Assembly (NCBI RefSeq): GCF_002355655.1
Contig: NZ_AP017570.1
Coordinates: 62,001 to 126,000 of the forward strand
Reading direction: 5' to 3'
Source: Halorubrum trapanicum
Lineage (GTDB): Archaea > Halobacteriota > Halobacteria > Halobacteriales > Haloferacaceae
DNA: 64,000 nt
Part shown: positions 4,094 to 63,800 of the stretch, piece by piece
Numbering within the stretch: the first letter of the stretch is position 1
Layout: every line of letters starts with the position of its first letter
The notes under the pieces: generated by a model
Database searches by the model: none
Seen by the model: only the letters and a program-made list of their open reading frames with translations
Told to the model about the DNA's origin: nothing
Program-made: the position numbers and the translations under genes

Positions 4094-4495
4094 CTACAGA
4101 TACGTTTCCTGAGACTCCAAGAGTTCAACCGCCTCTGCAAAGGCCACGTTCTCCTGAGCGTTCTCGATTTTCACCTGGACTCTATCACCGACTTCCACAT
4201 CTTCTACGATCACGACATACCCGTTATCGAGCTTGGCGATTCCATCACCCTGATCACCGATGGACTCGATTTCGACCACTCGTTCTTCGCCTTCCTCAAC
4301 AGGGGGTGAATCACTGGATTCAGTCTGACGGCCATCACCTGTCTTGGAGTGGCCGACGAGTCCGATCCGGTATGTTCTCCCCTTGTGAATTTCCCCGACT
4401 TCGACTTCACGTTTCGGTACTTCGACTACGTAGCTTCCGTCCTGTTCTTCGATTTCCGCTGTGTAGACAGTAAATAGCTGGTCAGGAATTTCCAT
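4094..4495 (-). CDS. TRAM-domain protein
   Basis: In this 133-residue protein the C-terminal half (about residues 65-128) reads as a TRAM domain: a small beta-barrel RNA-binding fold with the characteristic G-D-G-I-A-K and V-G-D-R-V-x-V-K-I spacing. Haloarchaea encode many TRAM proteins, some thought to act as RNA chaperones. The N-terminal half is another short beta-rich segment joined by an acidic linker. No methyltransferase or radical-SAM domain is attached. It is a single-gene unit flanked by repeats. Confidence 0.75.
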   Translation of the reverse strand: MEIPDQLFTVYTAEIEEQDGSYVVEVPKREVEVGEIHKGRTYRIGLVGHSKTGDGRQTESSDSPPVEEGEERVVEIESIGDQGDGIAKLDNGYVVIVEDVEVGDRVQVKIENAQENVAFAEAVELLESQETYL

Positions 4496-4732: not shown

Positions 4733-5284
4733 ATGTCCGAATCCCCGCGAGATGGGGCCCAGTCGTGGACTGTGTCGATGAGTGCCCGCGACCGTATTCG
4801 AGCGGTCGTCGAGACGATTCGCGAACCGCGATCGGTCAACTGGATTAGCGAACAGGCCGACGCTGCCTGGAGTACGACCAACGAGGAACTCCAGGATCTC
4901 GTCGACCAGGGCCAGCTGCGTCGCGTCGAGGCCGGCGAAACCACGCGCTATCAGCCGGACTACACGCGCCAGCTCTTCGAGGAAATCCGCACGATCATCG
5001 AGGAGAACACGCGCGAGGAACTGCGGTACGAACTGGCCGCGATTACCGAAGAGATCGAGGAGTGGCAGGCGACCTACGATGTCGAGACGTGGGAAGATCT
5101 CGAACAGTCGCTCGCCGACAGCGACCTGGCAAGTGCCGAGCTCCGCGAGCGCCGCGACGTGATCACGCGGTGGGAGGTGAATCTGGAAGACCGTCGCCTC
5201 ATCAAGCACGCGTTGGCGCTCTACTCGGATGTCGAAACCGTTGGTGAGCAGATGATGGACGTGGCTGACCGAACAATGCGCTAA
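4733..5284 (+). CDS. HTH protein of the haloarchaeal DUF7342 type
   Basis: A 183-residue protein. A winged-helix segment (about residues 15-75, with SVNWISEQADAAWSTTNEEL as the recognition region) is followed by a long charged helical region. ATG 4733 is preferred over the in-frame GTG at 4724. Homologous architecture appears at 5740-6252 and 42445-42984. I associate this type with DUF7342, unverified. The two other copies each precede an H-x-H protein gene; this one faces the 5291-5743 gene tail to tail, so two HTH genes flank a single partner. Likely a DNA-binding repressor, perhaps antitoxin-like. Confidence 0.75.
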   Translation: MSESPRDGAQSWTVSMSARDRIRAVVETIREPRSVNWISEQADAAWSTTNEELQDLVDQGQLRRVEAGETTRYQPDYTRQLFEEIRTIIEENTREELRYELAAITEEIEEWQATYDVETWEDLEQSLADSDLASAELRERRDVITRWEVNLEDRRLIKHALALYSDVETVGEQMMDVADRTMR

Positions 5285-5290
5285 TGTCGC

Positions 5291-5743
5291 TTACGGCGGG
5301 TTTGAGGCGCTATTCAGCTGCTCTATGTCGTCGTCCTCGTACACTGCACGCCACATCGTGTGGACGGCACGAGTGACGAGTGAGACCTCGGTCACCTCGA
5401 GACAGGACGGTTCGGCGGCCGTCGTCGCGGCCTCGGGCGGAGGGTGGAAATGAATCTCGGGAGAGTGTGCATTTGGGTGGCGATCGAAGCGCCAGTTGAC
5501 GCCGTCACTATCGACGTAGTGGAACGAATACATCCCTAGTTCGCTCCACTGGATATCGAGCCGGGCGCTGTCGGCGCCGCCGAGCCCATCGCTAAGAGTG
5601 ATCTGCAGTTCCGTGGGGGCGACAACATCATCGTACGACGTTGTGTCGACGAGCGGCTCGAGTTCGAGCCAAAGGTCACGAATCCGCTGGAGCGCCGGAA
5701 GGTAGATCGGCCCGAACTCGCCGGCGCGGTCGTCGTCGGTCAT
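5291..5743 (-). CDS. H-x-H partner protein of the HTH pair
   Basis: A 150-residue protein overlapping the stop of the upstream HTH gene in an ATGA junction, so translation is coupled. Its core reads FHYVDSDGVNWRFDRHPN followed by SPEIHFHPPP, giving a conserved His/Arg cluster on beta strands. The gene at 41983-42441 occupies the same place after another HTH gene and has a similar beta-rich, aromatic middle. The order (HTH then small basic/His protein) resembles TumA/TumE-like toxin-antitoxin pairs, but that is inference; toxicity cannot be read from sequence. Confidence 0.7.
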   Translation of the reverse strand: MTDDDRAGEFGPIYLPALQRIRDLWLELEPLVDTTSYDDVVAPTELQITLSDGLGGADSARLDIQWSELGMYSFHYVDSDGVNWRFDRHPNAHSPEIHFHPPPEAATTAAEPSCLEVTEVSLVTRAVHTMWRAVYEDDDIEQLNSASNPP

Positions 5744-6252
5744 ACGGCGAGCTGGTGGCTGGCCTCGTCGTAGGCGAGTGCAGCTTGGGCAACGGCGAGA
5801 TTCTGCCGCGTCGTACGCCACGCGCTGAGATCGTCCCAGCCCTCCGTCTCGTCGGCGTCGAGCTGCTGAGCAAGTTCTTCCGGTGACACCACGTCATAGC
5901 GGTCCTCGTAGCGCCGGATTTCGGCCTTCATCTCCTTGATACTGTCAAGCAACTCCGACCGAGTGACTTCCTCGCGCAGCTCGCGGATTCGGGACATCAA
6001 AATTCGGTCGCTGTTTCGCTTGTACAGCGTTGTTTGGCCATCCTGTTCCGTCTCGGCAAACCCGGTGTTCACGAGCGTCTTGCAGTGTCGACGTGCCGTC
6101 GGCTCGCTCACGAGGGCACGGCCGGCAATCTTGGCGGCCGACTGCCCGTCGTGGGTTTGTTCGACGATTTCGTACACCCGCTCGAACGGCGTGGTCTCCT
6201 CTTTCCAGTCCGCTTTGACTTGCTCGTTGACGTCCTCCCACGTTTCGGTCAT
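5740..6252 (-). CDS. HTH regulator paired with an H-x-H protein
   Basis: A 170-residue product from the ATG at 6252 (MTETWEDVNEQVKADW). The frame extends further upstream but only into non-coding composition. A winged helix (about residues 20-75, including SEPTARRHCKTLVNTGFAE) is followed by a helical region, as in the 4733 and 42445 genes. It overlaps the downstream 5291-5743 gene by four bases. A palindrome lies 28-48 bases upstream of the start. Likely a repressor of its own operon. Confidence 0.75.
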   Translation of the reverse strand: MTETWEDVNEQVKADWKEETTPFERVYEIVEQTHDGQSAAKIAGRALVSEPTARRHCKTLVNTGFAETEQDGQTTLYKRNSDRILMSRIRELREEVTRSELLDSIKEMKAEIRRYEDRYDVVSPEELAQQLDADETEGWDDLSAWRTTRQNLAVAQAALAYDEASHQLAV

Positions 6253-6279: not shown

Positions 6280-6300
6280 ATAGTTTCCTGAGAAAACTAT
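6280..6300 (-). promoter_or_regulatory. Operator-like palindrome ATAGTTT...AAACTAT
   Basis: A 21-base near-perfect palindrome (ATAGTTTCCT, G, AGAAAACTAT) centred about 38 bases upstream of the ATG at 6252, within the expected promoter. It probably binds the HTH product itself. Confidence 0.5.
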
Positions 6301-6329: not shown

Positions 6330-7256
6330 TCAGGCTATCTGCTCCTCTAACGTCTCGTGGTGCGTCCGGACAGTCGTTGGCGTGACGTTCCCTGTCTCCG
6401 CGACGTCGCTTTGCGTCACCCACTGCTCCAGTTCTTGCCCGGCTTTGTAGAGACAGGCCGCCGCGAACCCGGCCGGATGGACGCCCGTCGTGACGCCGCG
6501 CTCCTCGGCCTGTTCCGCGAGGGCTCGGGCCCGCTGTCGGATCTCGTCCGGACACTCGAGGTCCGAGGCGAGTCGCGGCACGAACATGCTGGGGGAGACG
6601 GGCTCAGCGGGGAGGCCAAGCTCTTCGTTCAGCGTTTTGTACGCGTTCGTGACCCGTGACTCCGCCACGCGGGCCATCTCGCTGACGTCGTCCACTAACC
6701 GCGAGAGGCCGTTGCACCGGCAGGCCCCGTACACGCTGGCCGCGGCGATGCCCTCGATGGATCTGCCACGAAGCAGATCATCGTTCTGGGCGCTCCGGAA
6801 GAGCTGACACGCCTGGTCGCGAATCGAATCGGAGAGCTCGAGCGCGCTCGCCAGCCGACGCACTTCGCCCAGGCCGTGGGCGAGATTCCGTTCCGCTTTC
6901 GACCGCCAGCGGCCCCGGGTCTGCTCACGGCGCATGCGCGCTAGTCGCCGTCGCTTCTGCCCGGAGATCTCGTTCCCCTTTGCGTCGGTACCGCGACCGA
7001 TTTCCGTCGACAGGCCGCGGTCGTGGCGAGCCGCAGTGAGTGGGGCGCCTGTTCGTTCACACTCCTCGTCGTCGTACGCCCGCCACTCAGGCCCGTGATC
7101 GATACGCTGTTCGTCGATGACCAGGCCACAGTCCTCGCAGACCGTTTCGACCGCGTTCGTGGTGACCCGGCCGTCGCACTCAGGACACTGGTTCGCACTC
7201 GATTCCGGTCGGACGTCTTCGTCGAATCCGCTCTCGTAGATGTCTCTCGTTGCCAT
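6330..7256 (-). CDS. tfb: Transcription initiation factor TFB
   Basis: A 308-residue protein from the ATG at 7256 (MATRDIYESGFDED), the usual beginning of haloarchaeal TFBs; a longer frame to 7343 has an unlikely leader. An N-terminal zinc ribbon (CPECDG...CEDCG, about residues 25-46) and B-finger region are followed by two cyclin-like repeats (about 110-200 and 210-305). TFB recruits RNA polymerase to TBP-bound promoters. Haloarchaea carry several TFBs, and extra copies on accessory replicons are common; this one may direct a subset of promoters. No IS damage is visible. Confidence 0.92.
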   Translation of the reverse strand: MATRDIYESGFDEDVRPESSANQCPECDGRVTTNAVETVCEDCGLVIDEQRIDHGPEWRAYDDEECERTGAPLTAARHDRGLSTEIGRGTDAKGNEISGQKRRRLARMRREQTRGRWRSKAERNLAHGLGEVRRLASALELSDSIRDQACQLFRSAQNDDLLRGRSIEGIAAASVYGACRCNGLSRLVDDVSEMARVAESRVTNAYKTLNEELGLPAEPVSPSMFVPRLASDLECPDEIRQRARALAEQAEERGVTTGVHPAGFAAACLYKAGQELEQWVTQSDVAETGNVTPTTVRTHHETLEEQIA

Positions 7257-7593
7257 CGTTCTCACCGTGTTTCGGGAACCCGCCAGTTCGGCGCGCCCCT
7301 CACCCATTGGAGGGACGAAAGACTCTGTGTAGGGCTGCCGCATCTACTGAGGAATTTGGCGGAATTGAATTACGGTGCTGTAGCCCTCGAAATCATAATG
7401 TAGGGCACTATGAGTGCCGAGGACGCTTCTCTTACGTTAGAACCAGGCAAGGAATCTAGATAGTTCTCACGCCTTTTAAGTCCAAATTGAGAATTTAATG
7501 CCAGCAAGACTACCGAAATTCATGCCACCCTCTCTGAAAAATACCTAGTCATTTTAAATGTAGCATACGGAGGAGTGAATATCCAACTACATC
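7257..7593. other. Gene-free interval
   Basis: No coding frame that I can support. It contains a small hairpin (GGCACT/AGTGCC near 7403-7419) and the AT-rich promoter region of the gene at 7594, with GGAGGAG about 20 bases before its start. Confidence 0.4.
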
Positions 7594-40759: not shown

Positions 40760-41986
40760 TCAATCGATCTGTTCGAGTGCTTCAGTTGCGACATCACCCA
40801 ATTCACCGGCTTCAATATGCGAATACCGTTCACGAACCATCTCCTCCGAGTTATCGAGATAGCGAGCCGCAACAGTGTACCCGAACGCGCGGACTAGCAC
40901 CTCGCCCATTCCACGTCGACCACCGTGGGGCGCGAGATAGTCGTGTTTCGGATGGTCGATGTCGATCTCTGCAGCCTCTGAGAGCCGTTGGAGAATCGAC
41001 CGTGCGCCGTCCGTCGTGATCGATGGAGGCCGAATGTCCTCATCGAGCGCCAGCAGCAGGTCGCGAGCGTACTCCGCACGGCGTTCAGTGATTGCTTCTG
41101 GGCGTTCCCCTCGATCGGCGAGGTCATCCTGGACGAGCTCTGCGAGCGTCCGTTGGTCGAACGTCGGAAACACCGGCCACTGCTCCGTCGGCGGGTCCAT
41201 CAGCTGGCGATAGCTTCGCAGCGGAGAAATCACTGGATCGGGGAGACTCGCGGCGTCCCACTGCTGTTTCTTCCGGTAGACGTCCATACTCCCGTCGTCG
41301 AGGGAGAGATCCTCCCAGCGGACGCCGCGCCGGCGCGGGTCGTTTGGATCTCGGAGGAGTTCGCCAACGCGGACAGCGGTGTACGCGAGGACGAACACCA
41401 GAGCCCGGTCACGAGTCGCCTTCAGCGCTACGTAGCGCGCTCGCTGCTTGTCGAGGGGGTCAGTATCCTCTGGGAGTGTCGTGTACGCCTCGACAGCGTC
41501 GCGGGCCCGTTCGTCGACGTGGCGGGTGAGAGCGTGGCGCTGTTCAGACGTCCAGGCCTGCTGGTCGCCGGGCTTGCGGCCGTCGTCCTCCGGTAACGGC
41601 GCCATCGCACTCGCCCGCTGCGCGTAATGCGCCTCGAGATACCCTTCGTTGACACACCACCCACACCAGGCAGAGATATAGCGGTAATAGGTTTGTACCG
41701 TGTTCTGCTTGAGTCCCCGATCTCCACCGAGATGTCGGGCGTACTCCCGGAACACGCGTTCGTCGAGATCGTCGAAGGTCGGTTTGCGGTCGACGTCGTC
41801 GGAGACGATCCCGGTCCAGTCGTCGGCGCCGCGGTCGCCGGCGGTCCACTCGGCGAACCGTTCAAGCTCGCGTGCAGCGTTACGTCGATAGTTCCCACCG
41901 TCGCCGCCGCGGCCTTTCCCCTTGTCCTGGAGGTAGCGCTCGAAGGAACTCGCGAGTGACTGATTAGTGCGTTCTCGAGGTGTCAT
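40760..41986 (-). CDS. Tyrosine recombinase / integrase
   Basis: A 408-residue protein. A SAM-like N-terminal core-binding domain (about residues 5-125, with LKQNTVQTYYRYISAWCGWC) is followed by the catalytic domain. The first Arg is in AYTAVRVGELL, the H-x-x-R box is HGGRRGMG and the nucleophile Tyr is in RERYSHIE. It lies next to the conjugation operon and probably integrates and excises the element. No tRNA attachment target was recognised nearby. It precedes a TTAACC-containing promoter region and follows the second HTH/H-x-H pair. Confidence 0.88.
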   Translation of the reverse strand: MTPRERTNQSLASSFERYLQDKGKGRGGDGGNYRRNAARELERFAEWTAGDRGADDWTGIVSDDVDRKPTFDDLDERVFREYARHLGGDRGLKQNTVQTYYRYISAWCGWCVNEGYLEAHYAQRASAMAPLPEDDGRKPGDQQAWTSEQRHALTRHVDERARDAVEAYTTLPEDTDPLDKQRARYVALKATRDRALVFVLAYTAVRVGELLRDPNDPRRRGVRWEDLSLDDGSMDVYRKKQQWDAASLPDPVISPLRSYRQLMDPPTEQWPVFPTFDQRTLAELVQDDLADRGERPEAITERRAEYARDLLLALDEDIRPPSITTDGARSILQRLSEAAEIDIDHPKHDYLAPHGGRRGMGEVLVRAFGYTVAARYLDNSEEMVRERYSHIEAGELGDVATEALEQID

Positions 41987-42441
41987 CGTTCCTCGTTCGC
42001 GTACTGGTAAGTCGGACGGACGTCCTCGAAGAGCGTTTCGACGATTTCCCAGAGGATCAGGGAAGGAGTCTCGTATTCAAATGTGATCCCCCAGCGGTCC
42101 TCCGTATTGGCGGCAGAGTACTGGAAATGCGCCCGTCCGAGATCGGGATGGTCCTCGTCCTGGTGCCAGCCGGCGTGAAAGCCCGTGTTCGGATCGGTGT
42201 AGTTGATACGGAACCAGTCGTGAGGGTCCTGTCGATACCACTTGACGGTCAGTTCCGGCGAATCAGGGCCCGTTGGGGGATTAAGGCGGGCTGGATCAAA
42301 AACCGCCCGCAGCTGCTTGGCCTCGATATCGTCAGGAACGTACTCGACGGCCGTGATCTGGGGGACACGGTCGAGGACGTCCCGCTTCAATTGGGCGTAG
42401 AGGTTCGCGTTCGGGTCACCACCTGGATGCGGGACCGACAT
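41983..42441 (-). CDS. Partner protein of the second HTH pair
   Basis: A 152-residue protein located three bases after the HTH gene and overlapping the integrase start by four bases. Beta-rich with aromatic and His residues (KWYRQDPHDWFRINY, FHAGWHQDEDHPDLGRAHFQ), it matches the position and general chemistry of the 5291-5743 protein. In both loci an HTH gene precedes it, so the pair behaves as a unit. A toxin-like role is suspected but not shown. Confidence 0.65.
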   Translation of the reverse strand: MSVPHPGGDPNANLYAQLKRDVLDRVPQITAVEYVPDDIEAKQLRAVFDPARLNPPTGPDSPELTVKWYRQDPHDWFRINYTDPNTGFHAGWHQDEDHPDLGRAHFQYSAANTEDRWGITFEYETPSLILWEIVETLFEDVRPTYQYANEER

Positions 42442-42444
42442 CCG

Positions 42445-42984
42445 TTAGCTGCTGGCCTCGGCAGGCTCTGTCGTCGGAGCCAGGAAGTCCCACTCGCGAA
42501 TGGCGAAGCCAACGATCTGGATACGACGCTGAAGGTGCTCCCACTCGCGGGCAATCTCACGGCGACGGTCTTCCTCGTCACCGTCAAGGGACTCGTCAGC
42601 GAGCGTTCCGCGAAGCTGATTCGGTGACTCGACGCCGAATTCGCCCTCCCAGTCGCGAATCTGCGTCTTCATATCGGCGAGACGGTCCGTAAGCTCCTCG
42701 ACAGTGTGCCCACTGTCTCGAAGCCGCATCGCCTCCTGCATCGCTTGGCGGCGATAATCTGGGTAATACGTGGTGTGAGTCCCGCTTTCGTCACGGTGGA
42801 GGATGCCATCGTCGACGAGCCGATCGAGGACGCGTTTGGTCGGCTCGTGTGACCAGCCCGCTTCCGAGGCGATCCAGTTGGCCGTCTGAGGCTCCGAAAG
42901 CTGCCGGGCGGTCATCCTCACGCGGTCTTCGCCCGTGGTCTGGCGTTCCATTAGGCCCTCGGAGTTCGGTTCGTCTTCGGACAT
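42445..42984 (-). CDS. HTH protein of the DUF7342 type, second pair
   Basis: 179 residues from the ATG at 42984 (MSEDEPNSEGLMERQTTGED); the longer upstream frame is rejected. The winged helix with SEPQTANWIASEAGWSHEPT closely matches the 4733 protein (REPRSVNWISEQADAAWSTT). A long charged helical region with DMKTQIRDWEGEFGVESPNQ follows. Probable autorepressor; a divergent palindrome lies just upstream. Confidence 0.75.
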   Translation of the reverse strand: MSEDEPNSEGLMERQTTGEDRVRMTARQLSEPQTANWIASEAGWSHEPTKRVLDRLVDDGILHRDESGTHTTYYPDYRRQAMQEAMRLRDSGHTVEELTDRLADMKTQIRDWEGEFGVESPNQLRGTLADESLDGDEEDRRREIAREWEHLQRRIQIVGFAIREWDFLAPTTEPAEASS

Positions 42985-43008: not shown

Positions 43009-43038
43009 AATATAGGTTGAGGTCATTAGTTCTATATT
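43009..43038 (-). promoter_or_regulatory. Inverted repeat AATATAG-N16-CTATATT
   Basis: Arms at 43009-43015 and 43032-43038 upstream of the HTH gene at 42984. The arms contain TATA-like cores, so binding would compete with TBP. Confidence 0.4.
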
Positions 43039-45432: not shown

Positions 45433-45526
45433 CGTGCGAAGTCAAATAACTAGACAGTGCCTCTGATATGGTAGCTCCGTTAGACGAAGATATCGTTATT
45501 AGCCTGGAAATCGTATCTTGTTATAC

Positions 45527-45931
45527 ATGAAAACAGCAACCCGGCAAATTGTCACCGAGGAACTGTGGCGGAGCGCCGTCTGGATAGCGATTGGCCTGTT
45601 TGGCTGGTCGATGATTATTGCATCTACTGATCTCATTCAGGCAAGTGCGCTAACCGCACTCGGACTTCCAATACTGACGTGGGCGGTATTGACGGCGGTG
45701 ATGGTTGGTATCCGAGTCACTACTGGGTTAGAATTGAAGGCGAAGACTGAAAACAGCCAGCTGCTTTGGCTCATTACTGGAAGTGTCCTTGGGGGGTTCT
45801 TTATCCTCTATGACGTACTAGTTAATGGGCGAGATCCAGTAATATTCCTCTGGTTCGGGGGTGCTGTCGCAGTTGGTGTCGGAATTTGGCGATTAGGTCT
45901 GCGCAATAAATCCGCATCAAACACCAACTGA
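45527..45931 (+). CDS. Four-TM protein, paralogue of the module 2 candidate immunity protein
   Basis: 134 residues from ATG 45527 (MKTATRQIVTEELWRSAVWI). Four predicted helices. It is clearly paralogous to the convergent protein at 45950-46342: both share EELWRS-x-VWIA-x-GLFGWSMI, the T-A-L-G-L-P-(I/L)-L-T-W segment and R-V-T-T-G-(L/M)-E-L-K. Having two versions beside one halocin-like gene suggests immunity diversification or a reserve copy from another producer. Confidence 0.7.
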   Translation: MKTATRQIVTEELWRSAVWIAIGLFGWSMIIASTDLIQASALTALGLPILTWAVLTAVMVGIRVTTGLELKAKTENSQLLWLITGSVLGGFFILYDVLVNGRDPVIFLWFGGAVAVGVGIWRLGLRNKSASNTN

Positions 45932-45949: not shown

Positions 45950-46342
45950 TTATTGTCCCGCTCGAACAATATAACCCCGCCAGATCAGGGTACCGAGTAC
46001 AGCCCCAACTATATATGCCACACTTATACCCCATGATTGGTTTTCTACCAAAATCATCCAAAAGACGAGGAATCCCCCCACAACTAAGCCTACAAACCAG
46101 ACCAAATACTTTCCACTTGCTGTTTCAACTTTTAATTCCATTCCTGTAGTAACTCGAAGAGTAATCATAAAAATCGTAAGTGTCGCCCATGTCAGAAGCG
46201 GTAGCCCAAGAGCAGTGTATGCAGTTGCCTCTAGCTGATCAGTTGATGAAAGAATCATTGACCAGCCGAACAACCCAACTGCAATCCAGACGACGCTCCG
46301 CCACAGTTCTTCGTTGATAATACGTCTAGTATTGTATTCCAT
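45950..46342 (-). CDS. Four-TM candidate immunity protein of module 2
   Basis: A 130-residue integral membrane protein whose ATG is 42 bases after the stop of the halocin-like precursor, so it is in the same operon. Helices lie at about residues 15-33, 40-62, 78-98 and 105-122. Its paralogue lies convergently at 45527. The position matches the membrane genes behind the precursors at 14973 and 50793, although the three membrane families differ. An immunity or export role is inferred from context. Confidence 0.7.
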   Translation of the reverse strand: MEYNTRRIINEELWRSVVWIAVGLFGWSMILSSTDQLEATAYTALGLPLLTWATLTIFMITLRVTTGMELKVETASGKYLVWFVGLVVGGFLVFWMILVENQSWGISVAYIVGAVLGTLIWRGYIVRAGQ

Positions 46343-60805: not shown

Positions 60806-63800
60806 TTACGACACGATGCCCGGTTTTTCTGAGTCCTCTCGAGCCGGTTGGGTGGGGACTTCCAGTCTGATCTCACTCCCATCGCCCGAGGTTTCAACTG
60901 AAATCGATCCCCCGGCACGAGTCACCAGTGATCGCACCATCCACAATCCGAGTCCCTGCCCGTGACTCAGCGGCGTTTCTTCGCCAGTTTCGAGGAGATT
61001 TTTCTCCATTTCCGGGAGTCCAGGCCCAGTATCGGACACACAAACCTCTACCCACCGTTCATCGGATTGCGAGACACTGATCTGTACGGATGGATGCTCA
61101 GTATCGTTCGCTGTGATGGCGTTCTCAACGAGCTCAGAAATCGCCTTGTCAAGTTCACTCGGTATTTGTGATTCTAGATCGTGGTCGGCTGTGATAGTGA
61201 TATTCGCATTAGCATATTCGTCTTCTTTTTTGGCTTGAATATCCTGAGCTATTTGCTGAGCACTCTGGTAGGAAGCGAGAGCGCTCTCGCTCGTGAGTAT
61301 ATTCTGGAGCTCTTGGGTCTTGTTTGCCATTTCTTCCCACTTGTCGAGAATGTCTCGGATCGTCGCAGCGCGCTGTTCACGAGTGTCTGTCTCTGTGTCC
61401 GACGCAAGCAGATCGACATACCCTCTCACTTTCGTCAGATCATTTCGGATATTGTGCCGCATAATCCGGTGTAAGACCTGGACGTGTTGCTGACGCTGTT
61501 CCTGAGCTGTAATATCTCGTGCCTCAAATACTAGGAAGCTAAGCTCCCCGTGCTGGCTTGAGATCGGCTTGATCGAGAAGTCGAAGCTGGCGAGTCCATC
61601 AACGCCTTCTGCTTCCACGTCGAACCGAACGAATGAACCCGAAGATGCTTGAGTAACTGCCTGTCTAATTTGAGTTTGCACTTCAGACGAATGCGCGAAC
61701 AGAGGGCATTCCCAGAGCGGTGTGCCTCTGCTCTCCTCCACACGTATGCCGCCGAACTCCATGAAGGGGTCGTTTAGCTCAAGGATTTCACCACTCTGGG
61801 TCATCAGACCCGTCAATTGGAACGTTTGATTGAATACGGATTCGAATTTTTTCGTTTGTTCTCTTATATTACTGATGTCACGTATATATAACAGAAACCC
61901 ACCAATTGCTTCATCGTCAAAGAGATTCCGTCCACGTGCCTCTACGGTAATCCACTCGTCATCCGCATCCATTGCTTGGAACTCTAGCTGAACGCTTGAA
62001 TCGGAATCCTCCACGGCGGCGAAAAACGCTTCCATTACACGTTCCCGATCCTCTGGATGGATATAATCAAAGACACTCTCTTGATTTAGCTGAGTTGGAT
62101 CATATCCAAGAACCCGTTCAGCAGAGCCACTAAGATAGGTGAAACACCCGTCGCGATCTAAGATAGACACGACGTCGACTGATTCCTCAACGAACCGCTC
62201 TGTTCTACGCCGCTGTTGACGCTGGTTAGTAAGATCTCTGATGACCATCCCGTATCCCAGGAACACTCCATCTTCAGTTTGAAGGGGAACGTATGAGACT
62301 TCTGCAGGGAACGACGATCCATCCTGACGGACTCGCTGTCCTTCGTGAGTACTTTCTCCTGCGAGTGATGCCTGTTTTAATAACCGATCAGCAATCCCAC
62401 GTTTTTGATCCTGTTCAGGGTGTAACTCTGCTGCTGGCATACCAATTGCAGTTTCTTCGTCATATCCAAAGATGTCGGCTGCTCCATCGTTCCAGCTGTC
62501 GATCTGTCCATCGTCATCGAGAAGTACAAAGGCGTATTCTTCGAGACTTTCCGAGAGGATCTCGAATCGCTTCCGCTCCTGTTGAATCTGCCGAATCCGT
62601 CGTTTTTGATCCGTTATGTCCGTGGCAATCGCGACAAGTCTCTCTCCAGTTTCGTCATCGGGTATCAGAACAGCATCTGTGTGTATCCATCGCGTTTGTT
62701 CGTTGGCATCAATAACTCTGAAATCCGCAGACAAGTCGTTGATATCGCCGACTCGTTCTAGTGAATCACGAACACGGTCCCGATCTTCCGGCGCGACGAT
62801 CTGTACGAACTCTTCATAGTTGTCCGGATCATGGCCAAGTAAATCGACAAGCGTGTCGTCGAATGATATCTGATCCGTCTCAAGACTCCACTCTGCAATA
62901 CCAGTGTCCGTTCCAGAAAGAACCAATTCGAGTTTCCGGTTTTGTTCTGCCAGGCTCCGAGTCCGTTGCCTCCGACCTGTTACGTCCTGCTGTATGCCAA
63001 TAAACTTCGAAAGCGTCCCATCTGCATCAGTGACTGGCGTGACAGACAATCGATTCCAGTATTCACTCCCGTCTTTTCGGTAGTTTTTCAATTCTACCGT
63101 TACCGGTTCACCGGCCGCAATCGCCTCTCGAAGCTTCGATATTTCGTCTGGGTCTGTCTCGGGTCCCTGGAGGAAACGTGGATTACGACCTAAGGCGTCG
63201 TCCTCCTGGTAGCCAGTAATGTCGGTGAATCCTTTATTTACGTACTCGATCGGGTTGTCTTCTCGCTGTGGGTCGGTGATCATGACCCCAACATTCGAGG
63301 AGTCAATCGCTTGCTCCTTGAGTTCGAGTTCGCGCTTCCGTTCTCGTTGTGCAGTCTGATCGCGCACAGTACAAACGAGGGGGCCCTCATCGATGATGGT
63401 CAGAGAGAGATCAGCCGGGAATGTGGTCCCGTCCGGTCGGGATCCGGTTACCTTACCCCGCCAGTGGCCCTCCGACTCAAGAACAGGGAAGGCTTCCGAC
63501 TCAAGACGCTCTACCTCATCTTCGTCATAGAGCATCCGCCAAGAGTCCCCGAGGAGTTGGTCAGTACCATCGAATCCATACATATCCACGTGTGTGTCGT
63601 CGATGTAGGTGTATTCTCCATCCTCAAGAATAGCGAAGCCGTCTTTCGCATCCTCGACAGCCTGCTGGAACGTCTCTAACTCGCGACGTCGTCGCTCACG
63701 GGGAGTAATATCACGGCTAGAAATGACGAGCGATTCGACTCCAGATTCCCCTGTAACCGGACGGATTGTGCCCGTCATGAACCGACTGTCACCGTCCTGA

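Follow-up and report, generated by a model that had tools for sequence, protein, structure and literature searches.

Organization of the two gene pairs

The window, the whole stretch of 64,000 nucleotides that we analysed, corresponds to positions 62,001–126,000 of a 141.5-kb contig (C2) in a haloarchaeal genome of three contigs (3.08 Mb). The size of this contig, the presence of a separate 2.8-Mb contig (C1), and matches to plasmids of close relatives suggest that the replicon is a plasmid. The window contains two gene pairs, each composed of a helix-turn-helix (HTH) gene followed closely by a partner gene on the same, reverse strand. In pair A, the HTH gene (P0005, 170 aa) is at 5740–6252 and the partner gene (P0002, 150 aa) at 5291–5743, with the partner start and the HTH stop overlapping by four bases (ATGA). 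In pair B, the HTH gene (P0003, 179 aa; 42445–42984) is separated from its partner (P0004, 152 aa; 41983–42441) by a 3-base gap. A third HTH gene (P0001, 183 aa; 4733–5284) is on the forward strand without a partner, and is convergent with pair A, six bases separating the two stop codons. The original prediction had placed both pairs and the orphan HTH gene at these positions, with the same overlap and gap, and our analysis confirms each of these assignments.

The gene immediately preceding pair A, in the same orientation, codes for a paralogue of transcription factor IIB (TFB; 6330–7343; Pfam TFIIB). A TFB paralogue is found in this position and orientation in 47 of 78 loci of the A1 type. 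Pair B is followed by a gene that the original prediction did not include, coding for a tyrosine recombinase with a phage-integrase SAM-like domain (Pfam PF13102; 40760–41986, reverse strand); it overlaps partner B by four bases (ATGA) and is the third gene of the B operon. An integrase gene is located downstream on the same strand in 27 of 40 B1 loci, and the order HTH–partner–integrase is repeated on numerous plasmids of haloarchaea, among them N. pharaonis PL131 and Halolamina pCBA1230-02. Across relatives more generally, the pairs are found in the context of plasmids, integrase genes and IS elements. Two other features of the window are a gene for a TRAM-domain protein (4094–4495, reverse strand), divergent from the orphan HTH gene, and two similar genes for small membrane proteins (45518–45931, forward, and 45950–46342, reverse) that lie tail to tail 18 bases apart and whose products share the motif ELWRS.VWIA.GLFGWSMI.

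The orphan HTH protein P0001 is 84–87% identical to HTH proteins of three other loci (L243, L254 and L265), each of which has a partner. A convergent orphan without a partner of its own is present in 36 of the 78 A1 loci; in the redundant set, 38 A1-type loci have an orphan near pair A with no trace of the orphan's partner, and one further A1-type locus (L170) retains a partner remnant beside it. The orphan is under purifying selection (Ka/Ks 0.12–0.19), and yet its frame is broken in several genomes. It would be the surviving antitoxin of a related module that has lost its partner, retained by selection next to pair A, and it may work on its own as an antidote or regulator; clean cases of a toxin lost and an antitoxin kept are too few beyond this orphan to establish a general asymmetry. 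On pNRC200 of H. salinarum (locus L299, 5456–6277 and 6323–7257), pair A and the orphan are separated by a SWIM zinc-finger gene that overlaps the end of the A partner, and a VapC gene is located 11 bases before the orphan HTH gene on the same strand.

Association of the HTH and partner genes

All three HTH proteins of the window are full-length members of Pfam family DUF7342 (PF24033), with E-values from 4e-40 to 2e-54 (3.9e-40 for P0005 and 1.9e-54 for P0003) and scores of 170.4, 137.7 and 184.2 bits against a gathering cut-off of 31.6. An IclR-like HTH occupies residues 32–69 of P0005. DUF7342 is found above cut-off in 266 of 292 sampled haloarchaeal genomes, and a literature search returned no paper naming the family and none on the HTH–partner module. 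The partners are labelled 'hypothetical protein' by NCBI and in the RefSeq-derived plasmid annotation.

Several features characterize the association. First, of the seven DUF7342 genes above the Pfam cut-off in the source genome, six have an A-like or B-like partner as the next gene, the seventh being the orphan P0001, and all six partners have a DUF7342 gene upstream. Second, in a census of six genomes, each with 4–13 examined copies of the module, 45 of 48 DUF7342 genes above cut-off are directly followed by a partner (two further marginal genes were left out). Third, the reverse also holds. The original prediction had taken frequent occurrence of the partner without the HTH gene as evidence against its reading, but of 279 partner ORFs, a count that takes in fragments, about 266 have DUF7342 directly upstream (264 were scored by script, and L155 and L181 were added by eye), although the surveyed loci are mutually related, and these pairing counts are therefore not independent events. 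Most of the partner ORFs lacking an adjacent DUF7342 gene are fragments or are located at contig edges or in masked sequence; at L259 the DUF7342 gene is about 1.7 kb from the partner, and L221 is truncated. Finally, the distances among HTH proteins and among partners are correlated (Mantel r 0.84, 0 of 5000 permutations) over 75 non-redundant pairs differing by more than 30% in partner sequence. Pairing is close to obligatory, and the HTH and partner proteins diverge in step. Adjacent or overlapping co-directed genes that are inherited jointly, as in type II toxin-antitoxin systems, are thus found here.

The sole clear lone partner is an A-type gene (L226, 1507–1944) with a different winged-HTH (wHTH) gene upstream, possibly reflecting an antitoxin swap. 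This locus counts against a toxin-antitoxin reading.

The module appears to be restricted to haloarchaea in the collections searched. When 84,980 species genomes were searched, the best 80 relatives of partner A were all haloarchaeal (one is a MAG labelled only Euryarchaeota), and within the phylum A-type partners are present in six of seven Halobacteria versus none of 53 other genomes. A search of phage records and viral contigs confirmed no relatives.

Partner A contains the RHPN...HFHPPP motif attributed to one of the partners in the original prediction, and in 15 diverse relatives residues R85, D87, H89 and H98-F99-H100 do not vary; in a set of 64 they hardly do. Partner B has the motif GWHxD-DHP-LG-HFQ; B-type partners keep the D, H and H of the core, but H-x-Q (H-F-Q) replaces H-x-H. 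Direct BLAST comparison of partners A and B gives no match. Comparison by hhalign aligns them over 121 columns with a probability of 96.6% (P 5.8e-10), a 64-row A model matches a chromosomal B-type partner (E 2.7e-16), and iterated A and B models converge, with 274 and 288 hits in all and 274 in common (the larger set had by then absorbed nine canonical TumE ORFs). On this evidence partners A and B are distant homologues within one superfamily, a link visible by profile methods only, and they share the core W-x(4-8)-Y-x-x-[HN]-[YW]-x-[DE] ... [RH]-x-D-x(1,2)-H-P ... H-[FY]-[HQ]. The pairs are under purifying selection, with Ka/Ks values of 0.08–0.12 for the pair A HTH gene, 0.09–0.23 for partner A and 0.07–0.12 for partner B.

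An AF2 model of P0002 built from the 64-row alignment (mean pLDDT 88.6) predicts a helix, a six-strand meander and a second helix, and a weaker model of P0004 (pLDDT 67.9) predicts a helix, seven strands and a helix. For TumE, the published account is of a seven-strand antiparallel sheet carrying two helices, with no confident PDB matches (PMC10584680); the predicted partner fold appears similar, the comparison being by description. A PDB sequence search with the partners gave no match, and Foldseek of the models against the PDB and viral models gave none at E ≤ 0.001. The best VIA-align score for the A model (Z 6.2) includes the Rhs toxin TreTu (7zhm), but several unrelated proteins tie with it; we therefore read the score as reflecting a common arrangement. 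The top rows for the B model, to actin-capping protein (Z up to 9.7), were set aside in view of the low confidence of that model.

These motifs and models bear on whether a partner could be an HUH-type endonuclease, with H-F-H as the HUH motif, that acts in recombination together with the integrase. H-F-H does lie on a predicted strand and there is an integrase in the B operon; it is, however, the integrase-adjacent B-type partners that have H-F-Q, the family has no conserved tyrosine in the C-terminal helix, and the strands are predicted to form a simple meander flanked by two helices. We consider this identity highly improbable and reject it.

Promoter dyads and kinship with TumE

Two dyads are proposed as operators: a 21-bp imperfect dyad, ATAGTTTTCTCAGGAAACTAT, at 6280–6300 before the pair A HTH gene, which is conserved in the promoters of relatives, and a 30-bp dyad, AATATAG-N16-CTATATT, at 43009–43038 before the pair B HTH gene. 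The original prediction of a palindrome in each HTH promoter stands as a family trait at a fixed position, but taken singly the dyads are within chance, 16 of 200 shuffles being as good for each of these two and 51 of 200 for the still weaker dyad of the orphan promoter. Across the family, the mean best dyad score is 6.02 in 59 non-redundant A-type promoters (5.04 ± 0.12 when shuffled) and 6.47 in 30 non-redundant B-type promoters (5.08 ± 0.16), an excess over dinucleotide shuffles of about eight standard deviations. Position is also well conserved: the A1 dyad is present in 65 distinct promoters, at −48 from the ATG in 56 of them, the B1 dyad is at −54 in all 29 distinct relatives that have it, and the B2 dyad is at −49 in 16 of 17 sites. 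The dyads hold TATA-like half-sites and differ in sequence among subfamilies. Covariation between the halves was looked for and none was seen, as would be the case for a DNA operator, and we therefore interpret the dyads as DNA operators rather than RNA hairpins. From their position and sequence we infer that they overlap the BRE/TATA region. A DUF7342 wHTH protein together with a conserved dyad would correspond to the DNA-binding antitoxin, and the operator in its own promoter, of a type II system.

The relationship of the partners to TumE (PF20126, equivalent to DUF6516; gathering cut-off 23.4 bits) is remote. P0002 matches the Pfam model below cut-off (E 0.0078, 16.6 bits), P0004 has no match, and 12 of 15 A-type members match weakly; the partner of L220 reaches E 1.1e-4 over nearly the full length, with 22.5 bits as a protein and 23.7, above the cut-off, in a six-frame search. 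A joint model was made from 264 DUF7342-adjacent partners, no TumE among them; when 19,030 ORFs were scanned with it, the top hits outside the family were all canonical TumE ORFs (best E 1e-5, most between 1e-4 and 1e-3). By hhalign, the joint model matches haloarchaeal TumE with P 8e-4 versus 0.15–0.22 for unrelated controls, a weak match that extends over only some 34 columns at the His motif, and the single models give weak local matches (P 0.0025 for A and 0.023 for B). The TumE core motif, R-[FYW]-D followed by H-x-H, is invariant in A-type partners, and B-type partners have H-x-Q. These comparisons point to the partners as remote TumE relatives that we do not place in PF20126, and because both partners of the window score under the Pfam cut-off we call them TumE-like rather than TumE. 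The original suggestion of a TumA/TumE-like system thus survives as remote profile homology to TumE together with a near-obligate, co-diverging operon and a conserved dyad, but not as membership of the Pfam family. TumA antitoxins have been described as diverse and mutually unrelated proteins, and the label 'TumA-like' therefore adds little.

Could the pairs instead be non-toxic and regulatory, a DUF7342 repressor controlling its own gene and neighbors such as the TFB and integrase genes, with the partner serving as an enzyme or as a co-regulator that senses a ligand or metal? The recurrence of these neighbors in A1 and B1 loci, the strong purifying selection on both genes and the conserved His/Asp pocket are all consistent with such a role. 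However, the neighbors change between subfamilies whereas the HTH–partner pair persists, the modules are plasmid-borne and patchy, with many copies per genome and close relatives across genera, and the partner's only detectable outside relatives are TumE toxins. We regard a regulatory pair as unlikely.

The proposed module and its known relatives

We propose that both pairs are type II toxin-antitoxin modules from a branch of the TumE superfamily specific to Halobacteria, in which the DUF7342 protein would be the antitoxin and autorepressor and the partner the toxin. On sequence evidence, we assign this reading a probability of roughly 0.7. TumE itself is toxic in E. coli, is rescued by its partner, and inhibits translation (PMC10584680). 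For the modules described here, we infer DNA binding, repression, complex formation, toxicity and target as follows. The upstream DUF7342 wHTH protein would bind the dyad in its own promoter, at what is presumed to be the BRE/TATA region, repress its operon when so bound, and hold the downstream partner in an inactive complex. If the plasmid (or a chromosomal island) were lost, or synthesis stopped, the HTH protein would disappear first, and the freed partner would halt growth through its conserved pocket R-x-D-x-H...H-x-H/Q, RNA cleavage or some other translation block being the likeliest means.

The same biochemistry could in principle serve abortive infection, with release triggered by virus infection instead of plasmid loss. 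Toxin-antitoxin modules often serve in defence, and the HTH proteins have weak PADLOC matches. These matches, however, go no further than generic wHTH segments, and PADLOC has no match for the partners; a defence module seems to us distinctly improbable, and we favor the plasmid-linked toxin-antitoxin reading.

A broader and more speculative proposal, which we consider possible but doubtful, is that DUF7342 modules form a major unnamed toxin-antitoxin superfamily of haloarchaea, in which co-diverging pairs and subfamily operators would keep specificities apart and conserved orphans such as that at 4733 would protect, as anti-addiction antidotes, against related modules carried by other plasmids. 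If the toxin-antitoxin reading of the pairs is right, a sizeable fraction of the 'hypothetical' gene pairs of haloarchaea would become testable toxin-antitoxin modules, including ones from the model species Halobacterium salinarum (VNG_RS11935/VNG_RS11930 on pNRC200), the TumE superfamily would gain a new type of antitoxin and, within haloarchaea, an opposite gene order, and the persistence of haloarchaeal megaplasmids may in part be explained.

Three known systems invite comparison. DUF7342 is a family of unknown function in Pfam, to which the present analysis adds the association with the partner. Canonical TumE, for which a literature search found no paper on haloarchaea, is above the Pfam cut-off in 50 of 97 haloarchaeal genomes, the source genome included; in these loci the toxin gene leads and a wHTH gene of the HVO_A0114 type (PF25212) usually comes next. 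These pairs (for example L093, in the source genome) resemble DUF7342 modules in class of organism, core motif and small wHTH mate, and the two wHTH families are alike over the HTH (hhalign P 5e-5), but they are different families and the gene order is reversed, toxin-first versus HTH-first. The TumE–TumA superfamily (Durairaj et al. 2023, PMC10584680) has in common with our modules a two-gene operon with a DNA-binding-type protein, the toxin in second position as in most TumE clusters, the core Y-x-[FH]-[QH]-Y-x-D ... R-[FYW]-D ... H-x-H with remote profile homology, and possibly, by comparison of the predicted partner models with the description of TumE, a fold of helix, antiparallel sheet and helix. 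It differs in that the partners are about 150 aa, with an extra N-terminal stretch, rather than about 100 aa, that they score below the Pfam gathering cut-off, with H-x-Q in the B branch, and that their HTH mate is DUF7342, which is not named for TumE–TumA in that study.
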